DNA from: Thermococcus onnurineus NA1
Lineage (GTDB): Archaea; Methanobacteriota_B; Thermococci; Thermococcales; Thermococcaceae
Length of the DNA: 64,000 nt
Reading direction: 5' to 3'
Assembly: GCF_000018365.1 (NCBI RefSeq)
Contig: NC_011529.1
Span: forward strand, 930,001 to 994,000
Shown here: piece after piece, positions 23,572 through 33,058 of the stretch
Numbering within the stretch: position 1 is the first letter of the stretch
How the letters are laid out: every line of letters begins with the position of its first letter
Made by a program: the position numbers and the translations under genes
Notes under the pieces: model-generated
The model's input: the letters and a program-made list of their open reading frames with translations, nothing else
What the model was told of the DNA's origin: nothing
Databases searched by the model: none

Positions 23572-24648
<1,077 letters not shown>

Positions 24649-24844
24649 CTTTATTTCCCTAAATTTAAAATAATATTCTTCTCTATTTCCATCTACATTA
24701 TCAACTATCCAGAATTGCTAGATAATACTATTGGAGTTCAATGCTATAATCATGCATAAAAGCTCTTCAAAACATCTATAAATCGAAAAGTTTTTATTAT
24801 CTTAGCAGATAATAAGAACGCCCTCACCACAAATGGGGGGAACG

Positions 24845-25219
24845 ATGGATAGAAGGAAAGTAGGGGCTGTTGGATTGGCTGTTCTGGCCATCTTCCTGAT
24901 GGTAGGGAGCGTGGCAGCACTCCACTACACCACAGTGAAGCCAGGGGCCATTGCAGGGGAGGATTATGAGTACAGAGATGTCAACTACTTCTTTGCCAGT
25001 GGGGGATTCAGTGCCTATGCGATGGGGCAGTGGGAAGTACCGCCAGAATACACTCTAACACTTGTCCTGTGGGATCACCAGGCAAGGTCATGGGGGGACG
25101 GCCTGCTCTGGAGAGTTGAAAGATGGGAGTCCGTGTACGAGGTTGGGACCAGAGTCTATGGAACCGTCGGTACATATGGTGACTGGATTGTAGCTCTTGT
25201 CCCAGCACCCGTAGGGTAA
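24845..25219 (+). CDS. small secreted protein, unknown (first gene of an ABC-linked cluster)
   Basis: A 124-residue protein with a signal peptide: RRK, a hydrophobic core VGLAVLAIFLMVGSVA, and likely cleavage near AALH. The mature part of about 97 residues is rich in Gly, Trp and Tyr (FFASGGFSAYAMGQW, RSWGDGLLWRVERWE) and predicted as beta-strand, with no cysteines. GGGGGG precedes ATG 24845, and GAAAAGTTTTTATT at about 24787 is a likely TATA box for the cluster. No family is recognised. Its position before a membrane-anchored protein and an ABC exporter resembles secreted-peptide (bacteriocin-like) gene clusters in layout only. Confidence 0.65.
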   Translation: MDRRKVGAVGLAVLAIFLMVGSVAALHYTTVKPGAIAGEDYEYRDVNYFFASGGFSAYAMGQWEVPPEYTLTLVLWDHQARSWGDGLLWRVERWESVYEVGTRVYGTVGTYGDWIVALVPAPVG

Positions 25220-25261
25220 TGATCCATGAACCCCTAATAGCTCAGATAGAGGTGGTAGGGA

Positions 25262-26338
25262 GTGAAAAAGAGTGCCCTTATTCTTCTCTTTTTATTTGGT
25301 GCCTGCCTTGTGACGCCCGCAGCAAAGGGCACCACTTACAGCCCGTTTTGGTTTGAACCAGGAACGTATACTGCATACTACGCCGTTGACAATTTCAGCA
25401 ATGCAATGTTAGTCTATTGGTTTAACGGGACGTATTATCTTGTAAAGTCAGTCAAAGTAATCCTGATAAATTTCACAATCATATCCGTGGACTCTCAAAA
25501 AGGAATTGCAACAGTGGGTGTTGAGGTAGTTCTCACTCCGAACCCCAACGATATCGAGAGAAATGACACGTCTAACGGAATAAACATAGTATTCGTCCCT
25601 CAGGACAACGCTCCAAATCTCCCTAGAAATCCCTTCTGGGATGAGACGGTATATGTGGCCAACAACTCCATAGAGATAGGTAACAAGGACGTCTTACAGG
25701 TGGAAGTGACGTCTCTTCGGCCGATAACAATAAGGGGCAAATACTTGATATTCTTGGAGAATGGAAGCGTTTACGATTTAGAGGGCAGGTATTACGGCCA
25801 CACCTCACTGTGGGGATTAAGAGACCTGAATGTGAATGACACCCTCCTAATACACAACGGCACTCCAATAAAGATTCGTTCAAACCAAATCATCAACACG
25901 ACCATATTGACGTACTATGGTCCCATTGAGAAGCCCAATGGAATTCTTATAACCGAACCTTCGGTGACTGATTTGCTGTTCTTTGAGTCACAGGGTGCCA
26001 GTATTGTTTCCTACAATCCCCAGCTGGACATTATGCTGACTTTTATGGGGCCCATCGCTGATCTCCAGGCGATAGGAATCCTGGACGTTTCAGTGGCAGA
26101 TAAAAAGGCAATAAGTTATGCCCGTGAACACATGAAAGAATTGGTCGGTACGAAAGAACCCAAGGAGTTGTGGATGCACGGGGTTTCCCTTTTCAAGACA
26201 AACATTCAGAAGAACAATCAAGTCGTCGAGAGTGATCCCCCAAAAAGCGGACTTAAAATTGGATTTTTCATTTCATTATCTGTCCTCGTTGTGATAATCC
26301 TTCTGAAAGGGGGTGTCCTGCGTGGGAAGTCTGCGTGA
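25262..26338 (+). CDS. membrane-anchored extracytoplasmic protein, unknown
   Basis: A 358-residue protein starting at GTG 25262 after GGTGGTAGGGA. It has a signal peptide (KKSALILLFLFGACLVTPA), a beta-rich ectodomain of about 300 residues with many NxS/T sites typical of exported archaeal proteins, and one C-terminal helix (SLSVLVVIILLKGG) ending in a short basic tail, so it is anchored with the bulk outside. No domain is recognised. It lies 42 bp after the small secreted protein and overlaps the permease gene by 17 bp. It could be a receptor, an immunity-like or an assembly factor for the secreted protein; all are inference. Confidence 0.65.
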   Translation: MKKSALILLFLFGACLVTPAAKGTTYSPFWFEPGTYTAYYAVDNFSNAMLVYWFNGTYYLVKSVKVILINFTIISVDSQKGIATVGVEVVLTPNPNDIERNDTSNGINIVFVPQDNAPNLPRNPFWDETVYVANNSIEIGNKDVLQVEVTSLRPITIRGKYLIFLENGSVYDLEGRYYGHTSLWGLRDLNVNDTLLIHNGTPIKIRSNQIINTTILTYYGPIEKPNGILITEPSVTDLLFFESQGASIVSYNPQLDIMLTFMGPIADLQAIGILDVSVADKKAISYAREHMKELVGTKEPKELWMHGVSLFKTNIQKNNQVVESDPPKSGLKIGFFISLSVLVVIILLKGGVLRGKSA

Positions 26339-27080
26339 AGCGTTCACCTGGGAGCTAAACGAACACATGCGCCTGTTTGTTTTGGCCATCAGTATTCCGA
26401 CCCTCGTTCTCATCTTTGCCTCCAAGCTCTTCGAAGCACGCAGCTCGTTAGGAGCGTCAGGATTTGGCTCGGGAACAATGCAAATCGTTACTGGAACAGC
26501 CATCATATCCACCTTAGGTTTTTCTGGGATATGGATGATTCTGGTATCTATAATACCGGTACTGTCTATATTGGTGTTCAGGCAGGAAAGGGATGTAGGA
26601 TACGCACTTTCACTCTACACCCTTCCTCTGTCAAAGAGGGAGTTCTTCTTCGTGAAGACTGCTACCGTTTATCTGCTCTCTCTGCTGGTTACTTACATTC
26701 CAATATTTTTTGTCATCCTGATAACTCAGGCCGATAACTGGGGTGCCCTTACCAAAGTAATGAGCAGCGGGAACTTCGTTTCGGCAATGATTCTTGTCCT
26801 TTACTTCGTTCTCTACTCCGTGGCTGTTTCCATAGTGGTATCCCTTACCTTTAGAAACGCCTTCCTTGATTTTCTCGTCTCCTTTTTCATCCTCGCCGTT
26901 CCCAATTTCATTGGTCTGAGTGTTCCTCCGTTCAGGTTCATTAACCGAATAGTGATGTTGGTGCTAACCACTCCCGATACCTCCAAGATCGCTAAGACGG
27001 AGTTCTTTGCTGGAGTGGTTGTACCGGCAATACTCCTATTGGTGGGCATTGTGATGATAGAGAGGAGGGATGTGCTGTGA
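26322..27080 (+). CDS. ABC-2 type transporter permease
   Basis: A 252-residue membrane protein with six predicted helices in the ABC-2 permease pattern: an N-terminal amphipathic EAFTWELNEHMR, then RQERDVGYALSLYTLPLSKREFFFVK, the typical cytoplasmic coupling segment of this class. GTG 26322 is preferred as the start because GGGGGTG lies upstream. It overlaps its neighbours on both sides. With the ATPase encoded at 27535 it would form an ABC exporter, or a lipid/peptide extraction pump, in the cytoplasmic membrane. Confidence 0.75.
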   Translation: MGSLREAFTWELNEHMRLFVLAISIPTLVLIFASKLFEARSSLGASGFGSGTMQIVTGTAIISTLGFSGIWMILVSIIPVLSILVFRQERDVGYALSLYTLPLSKREFFFVKTATVYLLSLLVTYIPIFFVILITQADNWGALTKVMSSGNFVSAMILVLYFVLYSVAVSIVVSLTFRNAFLDFLVSFFILAVPNFIGLSVPPFRFINRIVMLVLTTPDTSKIAKTEFFAGVVVPAILLLVGIVMIERRDVL

Positions 27081-27538
27081 GGAGGCTTATAATGACAATA
27101 CTCATTGCACTACTTATGTCATCTCTCGGATTAATGGCGGCCTATTCAATCAAATCGAACGTTGAAATAAACACGTCCCCCGTCGCTCTCAAGAGCACGG
27201 AGGGTGGAGAGTACGATTCATTTGTCTTCTACGTTCCTGGATGGATGAAAGCAAGGCTAACCTGTTCAGGAGGCACTGGAGTTGTTTATATCAAAAACGT
27301 TTTTTCAAACTCGACCATCTTTGAGGCAAACATGAACCAACAGCTCACGGCCGAGTTCCCTATTCCATATGAAGGCGACTACGTCCTTCAGTTTAGGGGT
27401 TCTGGAATGCCAACCTGTGCCCTCCTTATGAGAGACCTACATCCCCCCAAACAGGTTCAGGATACCTACTATGGCCTTGGAATTCTCGTAAGTGTAATCC
27501 TTTCTATGATCTTAGCAGGGATGAGGTGGTTCAAGTGA
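27077..27538 (+). CDS. small protein with two terminal membrane helices, unknown
   Basis: A 153-residue protein with an N-terminal helix (LIMTILIALLMSSLGLMAA) and a C-terminal helix (LGILVSVILSMILAGM), enclosing an extracytoplasmic beta-rich domain of about 95 residues with two cysteines (LTCSGG, PTCALL) that could form a disulfide. The GTG start overlaps the permease stop. It lies inside the ABC cluster between permease and ATPase, so it probably is an accessory subunit of the transporter. No family is recognised. Confidence 0.6.
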   Translation: MRRLIMTILIALLMSSLGLMAAYSIKSNVEINTSPVALKSTEGGEYDSFVFYVPGWMKARLTCSGGTGVVYIKNVFSNSTIFEANMNQQLTAEFPIPYEGDYVLQFRGSGMPTCALLMRDLHPPKQVQDTYYGLGILVSVILSMILAGMRWFK

Positions 27539-28188
27539 TAACTGCCGAGAAACTGACGAAGAGATTCAGGAGCATCACGGCCCTCAACGGCGTCACGGTT
27601 AAGATCCCCAAAGGAACCAACCTTATCGTAGGTCCAAACGGAGGTGGAAAGAGCACATTCTTGAAGATAGCAGCAGGAGTCTATCGGCCTACTTCAGGAG
27701 ACATCAAAGTTTTCGGAAAGAACCCTTGGTCAGATGGCGCCGTGAGAAAACGTATTGGCGTCGCTTTTGACCCACCAAGGTTTCCCACATTCGTCACGGG
27801 ACGAGAATGGCTTTCTATCTTCGCACGGGCGCGTGGAAAAGACGACGTGGAAGAGGTTGCAGAAATACTCGGGATAGACTACCTTGACAGGAGGATAGTT
27901 TCGTACTCCTCCGGAATGCTTAAGAGGCTCAGCTTGGCTCAGGCATTAGTGGGAAATCCATATCTGGTGATGCTCGACGAACCACTGGCAAACTTAGACT
28001 TCAGTGGAATAAGGGACATCATTGGAACTATCAAGGAACTGAGGGAAGAAAAAAGCTTTCTGATAATCAGCCACATGTGGGAGCCTCTGCTCCCAGTGGT
28101 GGATAGGGTCTATGTGATAGCCGACGGCAGGCTTGTGGCCCAGGGAGATGCAGGAGAGATAGAGGAGACCCTTCGGCGGCTCTACTAG
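27535..28188 (+). CDS. ABC transporter ATP-binding protein
   Basis: A 217-residue nucleotide-binding subunit. Walker A is GPNGGGKST (residues 30-38); the signature is a variant YSSGMLKRLSLAQAL; Walker B is YLVMLDEPLANLD; the switch His is in IISHMWE. The Q-loop position reads VAFDPPRFP, without a clear glutamine, as often in ABC-2 exporters. GTG 27535 follows GAGGTGGT. It overlaps the preceding gene by 4 bp and ends the cluster. It supplies ATP hydrolysis for the permease at 26322. Confidence 0.85.
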   Translation: MITAEKLTKRFRSITALNGVTVKIPKGTNLIVGPNGGGKSTFLKIAAGVYRPTSGDIKVFGKNPWSDGAVRKRIGVAFDPPRFPTFVTGREWLSIFARARGKDDVEEVAEILGIDYLDRRIVSYSSGMLKRLSLAQALVGNPYLVMLDEPLANLDFSGIRDIIGTIKELREEKSFLIISHMWEPLLPVVDRVYVIADGRLVAQGDAGEIEETLRRLY

Positions 28189-28399
28189 GGACTCAAAGGA
28201 TAGTGAATTTCCCCACTCTCAGACAAAGACCAGCAACGTACATGGTTCGATACTCATGCACCCCCAAGTTGGAACAGACAGGCTTCATATAGAAGTATGT
28301 CCACTCAGCGGGCAACTAGTTTATACTCCCCTCTCTTCCGCCAACTTTAAAAACCGGTCCGAGCATCTCTTAGAGGGACAATGTACAAGGGTGCTCGGC

Positions 28400-29104
28400 A
28401 TGGAGTCAAAGACGGCAAGGGTGCCCTTCTCAGGAGGATGGGAAGCTCTAATAAGCGTCGCGGTGAATCCTGAGGAGCTCTTCCCAACGTTTCCATACCG
28501 GGCAGAGGTTACTAAGACAGAAGAGAGGCTTATTGCGAAACTCTCCATTAAGAGCTTCCTCTGGAAGTTCGAGTTCGAGGGAGCCCTTGAGCTGGCCTTC
28601 AACGAACCTCACGTCACCTACGTAATGAAAGGTCGGAAGGGTCTTTTAATCCTGTCATTCATGGCAGACAATAGGAATCTGCTGGCTAGAGCTTCTGCCG
28701 ACATTCCCGGCGAGAAGTTGCTCGGAAAGAAGCTCAGGCTAATCGCCGAGGGCTCCGGTAAGACCCTCGCCAGAATGGCGGAGAGCCACCACATCGTTGC
28801 CCCGCTCGTCTTCGGTTCTGCGCGGGAGTTCATCCTCAAGGAGTTTAGGGCCCCACTGCTTGCCCATTTGCTCCGCTACGTGATGCTAAAAACAGGGAGG
28901 AGGTCATTCAGAATAATTGGGGAGGCAGGGGATAGTAGGTTTGTCGCGGAAGTTCTCGGAGGAGTCATTGAAAAGGTAGAGTACGAGACGGCGTCGGGAA
29001 GTTCTATAATAGAGGTTAGGAAGAGCATTCTGGACGTGTCAGAGGACGATTTTACTGGAATGGAGCTGGCCGGAAGATATATGGTTAAAATTGAGGAGCA
29101 CTGA
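28400..29104 (+). CDS. hypothetical protein, possibly START/SRPBCC-like
   Basis: A 234-residue soluble protein. The first 120 residues alternate beta-strands around FPYRAEVTKTEERLIAKL and LELAFNEPHVTYVMKG, reminiscent of the SRPBCC (START-like) ligand-binding fold, but no signature is decisive. The C-terminal 100 residues are mixed alpha/beta. ATG 28400 is chosen because a TATA-like ACTTTAAAAACC lies about 50 bp upstream and GGTGCTC precedes it; the longer frame to 28256 crosses that promoter. The genes on both sides are separate units. Function unknown. Confidence 0.6.
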   Translation: MESKTARVPFSGGWEALISVAVNPEELFPTFPYRAEVTKTEERLIAKLSIKSFLWKFEFEGALELAFNEPHVTYVMKGRKGLLILSFMADNRNLLARASADIPGEKLLGKKLRLIAEGSGKTLARMAESHHIVAPLVFGSAREFILKEFRAPLLAHLLRYVMLKTGRRSFRIIGEAGDSRFVAEVLGGVIEKVEYETASGSSIIEVRKSILDVSEDDFTGMELAGRYMVKIEEH

Positions 29105-31959: not shown

Positions 31960-32047
31960 TGGTGCGGGGGCGGGGATTTGAACCCCGGAACCCCTACGGG
32001 ACGGGACCCTCAATCCCGCGCCTTTGACCAGGCTCGGCAACCCCCGC
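31960..32047 (-). tRNA. tRNA-Leu (anticodon GAG), CCA encoded
   Basis: Minus strand. The acceptor stem is GCGGGGG/CCCCCGC, the D arm is GCCGAGCCTGGTCAAAGGC, the anticodon arm CGGGA-TTGAGGG-TCCCG has anticodon GAG, then come a long class II variable arm, the T arm CGGGG-TTCAAAT-CCCCG, discriminator A, and an encoded CCA at 31962-31960. GAG reads CUC and CUU leucine codons. A TATA box on the minus strand at 32086-32073 ends 25 bp before the first tRNA base. Confidence 0.95.
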
Positions 32048-32072
32048 GTTGCCAAAGTATAACGCTCGGAGA

Positions 32073-32086
32073 GGCTTTATAAATTT
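32073..32086 (-). promoter_or_regulatory. TATA box of tRNA-Leu
   Basis: AAATTTATAAAGCC on the minus strand, 25 bp before the tRNA 5' end. The identical 14-mer stands 26 bp before the tRNA-Lys at 32981, so this is a strong stable-RNA promoter element in which transcription probably starts at or next to the mature 5' end. Confidence 0.8.
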
Positions 32087-32121
32087 TGTGGTCCGTGAAG
32101 AGAACACATTCCAACGTAGCG

Positions 32122-32868
32122 TCATTTCAGTATCCATTTGAATTCCCTTTCGAGCATCGCGATGTGCTTCTTCTCCAAGGTTTCAGGATCAACGATCAAT
32201 ACAATACCAGCACCCTTTTCAAGGAGGACATCCTTAAGGGACATGAGAAATTTGATTGTTGATTCAAATCCGTTCTGGAGTATGAGGTAATTGAGTCCAT
32301 CGAAAATAACGAAAGTATCCTTATCAGCACTCTCTATTATGGTGTGCAGAAGGGGAGCGAGCCTTGTGGGGGATATCGCCTTTGGATGGTCTACGTTCGT
32401 TATCCAGATGTAAGGAACACCAAGGGACTCGTAGAGTTGGGGCCTTCTAGTTACAACAAGTACCTTCTTTCCCGATAGAAGCCCCAGAATCATCTGGGGA
32501 GATGTGGGCTTAACGAGATACGCCCCACGATGGAGTCCAGACTCTCCGTCGAGAACGACTCTGGGTTTCACGTGCATTACTATCTGTTTTCTAACTCTAA
32601 CCGCCGAGAGAGCTATTATCCCAATACCTATTGTTGCTATAACGTCGTCCAGTATCTTCAGGAGCTCCAGCGGAAAAATATCATTGAGAACATTTATCAG
32701 ATACCCAGACCAGAAAATTAGCACCCCAAGAAATATTCCCCTGACTACTGAGATCCCCAAAAATTCTCTCAGCACCCTTCTAATGGAGATCAGCAAATAA
32801 GCTACCCCAGTGAGGGAAACGAAGGCAACTATTTCAGCTACGAGTTTAACGTGTTCGTAGGTTATCAT
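32122..32868 (-). CDS. DUF835-domain membrane protein
   Basis: A 248-residue protein. Residues 1-90 hold three hydrophobic helices; the C-terminal domain of about 130 residues has the DUF835 pattern, with KVLVVTRRP, PYIWITNVDHPKAISPTRLAPL and VIFDGLNYLILQNGFE, followed by VLIVDPETL. DUF835 resembles a RecA/KaiC-like fold that lost its P-loop; its function is unknown, though it is common and multi-copy in Thermococcales. A second DUF835 protein, lacking membrane helices, is at 61250. It is flanked by tRNA genes on both sides. It could be a membrane signalling protein; this is inference. Confidence 0.8.
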   Translation of the reverse strand: MITYEHVKLVAEIVAFVSLTGVAYLLISIRRVLREFLGISVVRGIFLGVLIFWSGYLINVLNDIFPLELLKILDDVIATIGIGIIALSAVRVRKQIVMHVKPRVVLDGESGLHRGAYLVKPTSPQMILGLLSGKKVLVVTRRPQLYESLGVPYIWITNVDHPKAISPTRLAPLLHTIIESADKDTFVIFDGLNYLILQNGFESTIKFLMSLKDVLLEKGAGIVLIVDPETLEKKHIAMLEREFKWILK

Positions 32869-32940
32869 TGTTTCTACATATAACAGTGGGTTTATATTCT
32901 TTTCCCAAGCGTAACACCCGGCGTCCCACCTCAGACCAAA

Positions 32941-32954
32941 AAATTTATAAAGCC
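32941..32954 (+). promoter_or_regulatory. TATA box of tRNA-Lys
   Basis: AAATTTATAAAGCC, 26 bp before the tRNA-Lys 5' end, identical to the tRNA-Leu element on the opposite strand at 32073-32086. Confidence 0.8.
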
Positions 32955-32980
32955 ACCTCCCGTCTATGGTTTCGGGTTGA

Positions 32981-33058
32981 GGGCCGGTAGCTCAGCATGG
33001 TTAGAGCGCGGGACTCTTAATCCCGTGGTCGGGGGTTCGAATCCCCCCCGGCCCGCCA
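32981..33058 (+). tRNA. tRNA-Lys (anticodon CTT), CCA encoded
   Basis: The acceptor stem is GGGCCGG/CCGGCCC, the anticodon arm CGGGA-CTCTTAA-TCCCG has anticodon CTT, the T arm is GGGGG-TTCGAAT-CCCCC, discriminator G, and CCA is encoded at 33056-33058. There is no intron. It reads AAG lysine codons. Confidence 0.95.

Follow-up and report, generated by a model that had tools for sequence, protein, structure and literature searches.

The five-gene locus and its proteins

The window analysed here comprises 64,000 nucleotides of the genome of Thermococcus onnurineus NA1 (NC_011529.1, positions 930,001 to 994,000 of the forward strand; the genome is a single contig of 1,847,607 bp). Positions 24845-28188 of the window harbour a module of five genes, termed P1 to P5, which combine a small protein predicted to be secreted (P1), a membrane-anchored ectodomain protein (P2) and the components of an ATP-binding cassette (ABC) transporter. 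Comparison with related genomes revealed that P1 and the neighbouring ectodomain gene are passed on together as a single unit of specificity while the ABC backbone stays constant, and that P1 is the member the module can do without. The five genes are the following:

P1, 24845..25219, + strand: predicted small secreted protein of 124 amino acids (aa), variable and effector-like; belongs to group 3 of the six groups of P1
P2, 25262..26338, + strand: ectodomain protein of 358 aa with a C-terminal helix anchor; one to four copies in relatives
P3, 26322..27080, + strand: putative ABC-2-type permease of 252 aa with six hydrophobic segments; backbone
P4, 27077..27538, + strand: predicted small double-anchored extracellular protein of 153 aa; backbone
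P5, 27535..28188, + strand: ABC ATPase of 217 aa; backbone

All five open reading frames (ORFs) were found on the + strand at the positions given by the first-pass annotation, and its description of a closely packed cluster held, as P2 to P5 overlap (17 bp between P2 and P3, 4 bp between P3 and P4 as well as between P4 and P5) and only 42 bp separate the end of P1 from the start of P2. An alternative in-frame ATG at position 24833 would extend P1 to 128 aa. A chance origin of these ORFs was dismissed since homologues of P1 to P4 occupy equivalent places elsewhere in related genomes.

Judged by hydropathy and motif rather than by a dedicated predictor, P1 possesses a signal-peptide-like N-terminus: it contains one hydrophobic segment (residues 8-26), and a V-A-A motif precedes the mature part. 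The 99 residues following residue 25 include 6 Trp and 12 Gly and carry a net charge of -6. The earlier wording "peptide" is loose given that P1 has the size of a small folded protein. P2 consists of an N-terminal hydrophobic segment, the ectodomain and a C-terminal transmembrane segment at residues 330-348; its ectodomain contains 9 N-x-S/T sequons compared with 3.4 in shuffled sequences (p = 0.0035). P4 is hydrophobic at residues 4-22 and 134-152, thus with one segment at each end. P3 matched the ABC2_membrane_4 family (PF12730) weakly, with 24.4 bits and under the cut-off of 27, whereas P5 clearly meets the ABC_tran model (PF00005; 80.3 bits, cut-off 25), its nearest NCBIfam models being TIGR01188 (112.8 bits) and TIGR03740 (108.4 bits).

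Searches of Pfam, NCBIfam, PADLOC and PHROGs with P1, P2 and P4 returned only chance-level matches, in agreement with the first-pass statement that nothing but the ABC parts is recognisable; a match of the secreted proteins to known transport substrates was likewise not obtained. Over its 124 aa P1 showed no recognisable toxin domain or family match and no long N-terminal trafficking region, and neither P1 nor P2 contains an immunoglobulin (Ig) domain. The alignments of P1 and P2 retrieved from the solved structures either nothing or only aquaporins (E >= 1.3, judged to be chance). A phage origin was rejected, as P1, P2 and P4 lack PHROGs matches.

The AlphaFold2 model of P1, for which nine sequences were used, four of them (group 1) of doubtful homology to P1, predicts six antiparallel beta strands at moderate confidence (predicted local distance difference test, pLDDT, 71.6; predicted template modelling score, pTM, 0.58), and the five models disagree, with the pLDDT falling from 71.6 to 39.8. 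Foldseek detected no match to this model at E <= 0.001, and its best neighbour, a Listeria protein of unknown function, is too weak for use (Z 6.4). The model of P2 (15 sequences; pLDDT 75.2, pTM 0.73) predicts a large beta fold with a helix at the C-terminus. While Foldseek again found no match at E <= 0.001, VIA-align listed LmcA (Z 8.7, root-mean-square deviation 4.3 over 176 residues), BDI_3050 (Z 7.6), BF2203 (Z 7.4), DUF1849 (Z 6.6), RseB (Z 4.2) and LolA3 (Z 3.5) as neighbours. These hint that P2 may form an open barrel of the carrier type, with Z values that lie within the range seen for models lacking clear relatives.

Distribution and architecture of the module

The first-pass annotation had assumed archaeal examples of such a layout to be few, which proved incorrect for this module: of 94 Thermococcales genomes searched with a profile of the permease, 61 contain the family (129 copies, fragments of one gene counted once), as do three of 21 other genomes of the class. 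The ectodomain profile was positive in 61 of the 115 genomes, all of them within the order. A single-sequence search with P1, in contrast, retrieved only its own genome, genome G040 (90% identity) and, weakly, G067, because the P1 slot is highly variable.

The gene order was read in 100 neighbourhoods containing 99 intact permeases. It is usually P1, one to four ectodomain genes, ABC-2 permease, small double-anchored protein and ATPase, and it is identical to that of the window in genome G006, whose P1 belongs to group 2. The small protein follows the permease in 99/99 cases, the ATPase is present in 94/99, an intact ectodomain gene lies upstream in 92/99 and all three partners occur together in 87/99. 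Four of the five permeases without an ATPase of their own are the first of two tandem modules. Such tandem double modules, in which ectodomain gene, permease and small gene occur twice with one ATPase in common, were seen in L113, L115, L118 and L119. Open frames of about 400 aa that suggested a fusion of the permease and the small gene stem from an overlapping frame, and such a fusion was rejected. A regulator or kinase gene was not found in the conserved gene set of the modules read.

The ectodomain genes can be stacked: among the 99 modules 66 contain one intact copy, 18 contain two, five contain three and three contain four (two to four copies in 26/99), and seven contain none. Two or three P1 genes occur in three modules. 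A small ORF whose N-terminus is hydrophobic usually precedes the first ectodomain gene. Visual inspection removed 17 name prefixes representing truncated remnants or 3' ends of unrelated upstream genes and left 64 P1-type proteins of about 110-150 aa, which fall into groups of 27, 18, 8, 5, 5 and 1 members; the P1 of the window is found in a group of five. A profile comparison of the six groups, of little power given their small sizes, did not support common ancestry (best hhalign probability 16.7%), and we therefore do not claim a single P1 family. The groups mostly follow the permease clades, group 4 spanning two of them.

The secreted protein was found to co-occur with the ABC genes, so that the lack of co-occurrence that might have spoken against the first-pass proposal was not observed. 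The profile of P1 group 1 matched 27 places in 25 of the 94 genomes, 23 of them within 10 kb of a permease; of the remainder one sits at the end of a contig next to an ectodomain gene and three are weak (E >= 2.5e-4). For group 0 there were 43 places in 26 of 94 genomes, comprising 36 within 10 kb of a permease, three more beside an ectodomain gene (L233, L234, L237) and four fragments of a copy that has degenerated in G007 and G011; no ectodomain gene was seen in the one stretch read around the degenerate copy of G007 (L235).

Some modules with a group 0 P1 additionally encode proteins of 533-578 aa (L133:6665-8263 and L134:6619-8247, + strand; similar ORFs in L136, L138 and L188), whose genes separate an ectodomain gene from the permease or come after the ATPase. 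The two proteins tested both contain PEGA domains (PF08308), and these proteins may represent a further surface component. A locus of another family of the class (G109, L227:6083-9819, - strand) encodes an anchored protein of 368 aa, a secreted-looking protein of 112 aa, a permease, a protein of 149 aa and an ATPase. Its gene order differs and homology to the ectodomain could not be detected; this locus may represent a remote variant of the module.

Cassette replacement and loss of P1

In related modules whose permeases are 80-97% identical, the C-terminal half of P1 and the adjacent ectodomain gene have been replaced together. The permeases of L131 and L162, for example, share 95% identity (synonymous divergence, dS, 0.07), whereas the mature P1 proteins share 52% and the first ectodomains 32%, with dS saturated; L153/L163 and L125/L126 display the same pattern. 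The last ectodomain gene stays with the backbone (86% and 92%), the first does not. Among 66 module pairs with a permease identity >= 0.80, which are not mutually independent, the C-terminal part of P1 and the first ectodomain were both alike in 26 and both unlike in 38, so that 64/66 were concordant under identity limits of 0.65 (P1) and 0.62 (first ectodomain) that were chosen after seeing the data. In both discordant pairs the P1 part was similar and the first ectodomain dissimilar, and the reverse was never seen.

The correlation and permutation test is free of these limits, apart from its concordance count. Across 113 pairs within permease clades the identities of P1 and of the first ectodomain correlated with r = 0.82, compared with a maximum of 0.64 in 5000 permutations inside the clades, and the individual clades reached 0.88 (11 modules), 0.88 (8 modules) and 0.74 (7 modules; p = 0.0135). 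P1 and the permease correlated with only -0.16 and 0.20 in the two largest clades. For the 19 pairs with a separate last ectodomain, P1 correlated with the first ectodomain at 0.97 and with the last at 0.44, while the last ectodomain followed the permease (r = 0.80).

Breakpoints were mapped by nucleotide comparison of ten pairs with a backbone at least 85% identical. The 5' homology stops inside P1 in nine pairs (codon 17-83) and in the first ectodomain gene in the tenth, and it restarts within an ectodomain gene in nine pairs and 14 bp before the permease in one. Three of the restarts lie at nucleotides +67 to +72 of the ectodomain gene, just past the N-terminal hydrophobic region. What moves is therefore the C-terminal portion of P1 together with the one or more ectodomain genes behind it. 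Relatives of the module of the window thus combine an exchangeable C-terminal region with a neighbouring partner gene that is inherited along with it.

The loss of genes is one-sided. Among 106 module copies P1 and the first ectodomain gene are both intact in 60; P1 is missing or a remnant beside an intact first ectodomain gene in 34, whereas an intact P1 beside a broken first ectodomain gene occurs in only two. Both are impaired in eight, and in two the stretch contains no ectodomain gene. The remnant label was assigned per locus, so that the two-module loci L113 and L115 carry it twice, which leaves the sum of remnants and absences (34/106) unaffected. Because part of the broken genes in draft genomes may reflect sequencing errors, assemblies with five contigs or fewer were counted separately and gave 22/60 for the loss of P1 versus 1/60 for the loss of the ectodomain gene. 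Random decay would predict the opposite bias because P1 is the shorter gene. An initial count had found 43 of 99 modules with an intact permease to lack an intact P1 while keeping the ABC genes; two of the 43 later turned out to carry a full-length P1. In the complete genome G028 P1 is lost or broken in each of three modules (L130, L186, L191) and the ectodomain genes are broken in two; this lineage is losing the system.

The copy of the window can be compared with G040, to which P1 and P2 are 90% and 93% identical. The dS values relative to G040 are 0.23 for P1, 0.10 for P2, 0.57 for P3, 0.50 for P4 and 0.04 for P5, compared with 0.47 for the upstream M42 peptidase gene and 0.98-1.50 for the three genes downstream of the module. 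Given this unevenness of dS and identity the module is a mosaic of recent exchange between species. The alignment of 24134-28300 with L109 (G040) is sharply mosaic, with nucleotide identities of 75-99%. The flanking features are:

M42 peptidase gene, 23602-24648: upstream flank of the module (PF05343); fits TON_1032, a deblocking aminopeptidase according to PMC4463584
ORF of 282 aa, 28256-29104, + strand: directly after P5, 76% identical in G040, outside the conserved set; no Pfam or NCBIfam family matched
two transfer RNA (tRNA) genes, 31960-33058: 3.8 kb downstream

A common tRNA-borne island was set aside, the tRNA genes having been looked at in the window alone.

Proposed function of the module and comparison with known systems

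We propose, with moderate confidence, that the five genes form a polymorphic module of Thermococcales that serves antagonism or kin recognition. P1 would be exported by the general secretory (Sec) pathway and act outside the cell, probably on relatives without the matching partner. The adjacent ectodomain protein P2, or the first one in modules with several copies, would serve as the cognate protector; at the cell surface it would bind the P1 that matches it and either hand this P1 to the conserved ABC complex of P3, P4 and P5 or gate this complex, which would spend ATP to clear P1 or to signal its presence. Specificity would reside in the C-terminal half of P1 together with the neighbouring ectodomain, traded between strains as one cassette. 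The effector/protector reading is preferred because it explains best both the joint inheritance and the dispensability of P1. The toxin/immunity layout suggested in the first-pass annotation is partly supported by the joint cassette replacement and the preferential loss of P1, with P1 as a putative toxin. A fully specified version, in which a Sec-secreted beta-protein, matched through its C-terminal half to a carrier-like anchored ectodomain, is passed to the ABC-2 complex for expulsion throughout the order and the cassettes are traded by recombination inside the effector gene, is put forward tentatively and is rated as somewhat less likely than not.

Several points weigh against the proposed antagonism. 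Adjacent genes swapped in one tract will correlate even if their products never interact, and the loss of a signal with retention of its receptor would look the same as the loss of an effector. P1 is acidic, unlike a cationic pore-former, and matched no known toxin in the family searches. The median ratio of non-synonymous to synonymous divergence (dN/dS) is 0.21 for P1 and 0.12 for the permease, so that positive selection on P1 was rejected and no arms race by point mutations is seen. In a clade of four modules the correlation of P1 and the first ectodomain was not significant (r = 0.28, p = 0.27), and the only close relative of the window's module, G040, keeps both P1 and P2. Our confidence was kept at the moderate level since linked exchange alone gives a correlation and since most observations also fit a pheromone and its receptor.

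In the latter case P1 would be a secreted signal and P2 its cognate receptor, the ABC complex would act as sensor or uptake unit, and cassette exchange would create pherotypes. The joint exchange of P1 and its anchored ectodomain partner, the low dN/dS and the retention of the receptor after loss of the signal are all compatible with this. Taking into account, however, that the conserved set includes no regulator or kinase gene, that P1 is large for a pheromone and that up to four ectodomain genes beside one P1 fit accumulated protection better, we consider signalling unlikely. Variation driven by viruses or predators, with P1 and P2 as structural surface proteins whose epitopes serve as virus receptors and P1 not being an effector, would agree with the sequon-rich surface protein P2 and with the cassette exchange typical of exposed surface loci; in the cited parts of PMC8416519 VARTIG is described as another recombining surface locus of Thermococcales. 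It leaves unexplained, however, why P1 is lost far more often than its longer neighbour and why the ABC backbone is constant, and we likewise regard it as an improbable explanation.

The ABC complex might instead export P1, assemble it or modify the surface with it; the tight linkage of P1 to the ABC genes speaks for this, and the first-pass annotation had called the ABC parts an exporter. This appears doubtful as P1 carries its own signal-peptide-like N-terminus and as the ABC genes persist in the modules without intact P1 (43/99 in the initial count, including the two later found to carry a full-length P1), and a role of this kind seems very unlikely. Just as little credit can be given to a shuttle for envelope lipids or lipoproteins, in which P2 would be a LolA-like carrier feeding the ABC transporter and P1 an accessory or cargo. 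The best neighbours of the P2 model, LmcA and other open-barrel carrier-like folds, point in this direction, but with Z values typical of models that have no clear relative and without a Foldseek match, and a housekeeping role need imply neither the absence from 33 of 94 genomes nor cassette exchange. Interference between hyperthermophilic archaea is hardly known. If the effector/protector reading is true, an exchangeable module of this type, with an ABC transporter as its base, is present in most Thermococcus species, several hundred proteins lacking a family assignment gain a role, the defined parts in genetically tractable strains bring kin discrimination in hot vents within direct experimental reach, and nature offers a series of matched pairs for studying how binding interfaces diversify at 80-100 degrees C. 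Should P1 instead turn out to be a signal or part of the surface, the exchange of cassettes whose breakpoints fall within a small secreted gene is still clear and measurable.

Polymorphic toxin systems, which follow the logic of contact-dependent inhibition, pair a protein of constant N-terminal and exchangeable C-terminal part with a neighbouring partner gene that can likewise be exchanged. The module resembles them in that the N-terminal part of P1 is constant whereas its C-terminal part and the adjacent partner gene are exchangeable, but it differs in having no large delivery protein and no recognised toxin or immunity domain and in that the partner is an anchored extracellular protein tied to an ABC transporter. 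The survey of archaeal antimicrobial peptides and polymorphic toxins by Makarova et al. 2019 (mBio) may mention parts of the module. The LanFEG transporters for lantibiotic protection are similar insofar as P5 is closest to such subfamilies among the NCBIfam models; the 108.4 bits of P5, however, fall far below the TIGR03740 cut-off of 309.75, the permease lies outside that family and lantibiotic genes are absent.

The cited parts of PMC11796350 describe lactococcin 972-type loci, such as that of streptococcin B (scbABC), in which the gene of a Sec-secreted beta-sandwich protein precedes genes with presumed, as yet unproven, roles in immunity and transport; the presence of these loci is variable and some strains lose the bacteriocin and keep the other genes. 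In both systems a small protein, secreted and non-helical in the lactococcin 972-type loci and predicted to be so in the module, stands before membrane and transporter genes and is lost while the rest persists. Differences are that P1 has no family match, that the module counts five genes rather than three, among them those of an anchored ectodomain protein and a small protein with two anchors, and that the exchange of P1-partner cassettes is the feature described here. P1 and seven P1-type proteins of other groups did not match lactococcin 972 in Pfam and NCBIfam at E <= 10, and the structure of the lactococcin 972 family was not among the listed neighbours of the P1 model (six strands, low agreement).

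The nearest precedent from the same archaeal order is VARTIG, according to the cited parts of PMC8416519 a variable secreted or surface protein with C-terminal recombination, which its authors liken to polymorphic toxin systems. Like the module it involves a recombining variable secreted protein, but VARTIG modules are built around a large protein (>500 aa) that contains Ig domains, and the genes downstream of it are heterogeneous, whereas the variable protein of the module has about 110-150 aa, is encoded by a 5' gene, P1, without Ig domains and is followed by a constant ABC set. The terms "ABC", "ATPase" and "permease" are absent from the main text of PMC8416519. The relevant part of PMC12328743 treats an unrelated bacteriocin class with an ABC transporter, the corresponding passages of PMC9425974 and PMC6393860 do not show the module, and a published description of it was not found in the open-licence literature of PubMed Central. 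Polymorphic effector/partner modules are already known as a kind; the polymorphism of P1 and its partner on a constant ABC backbone is the new result.

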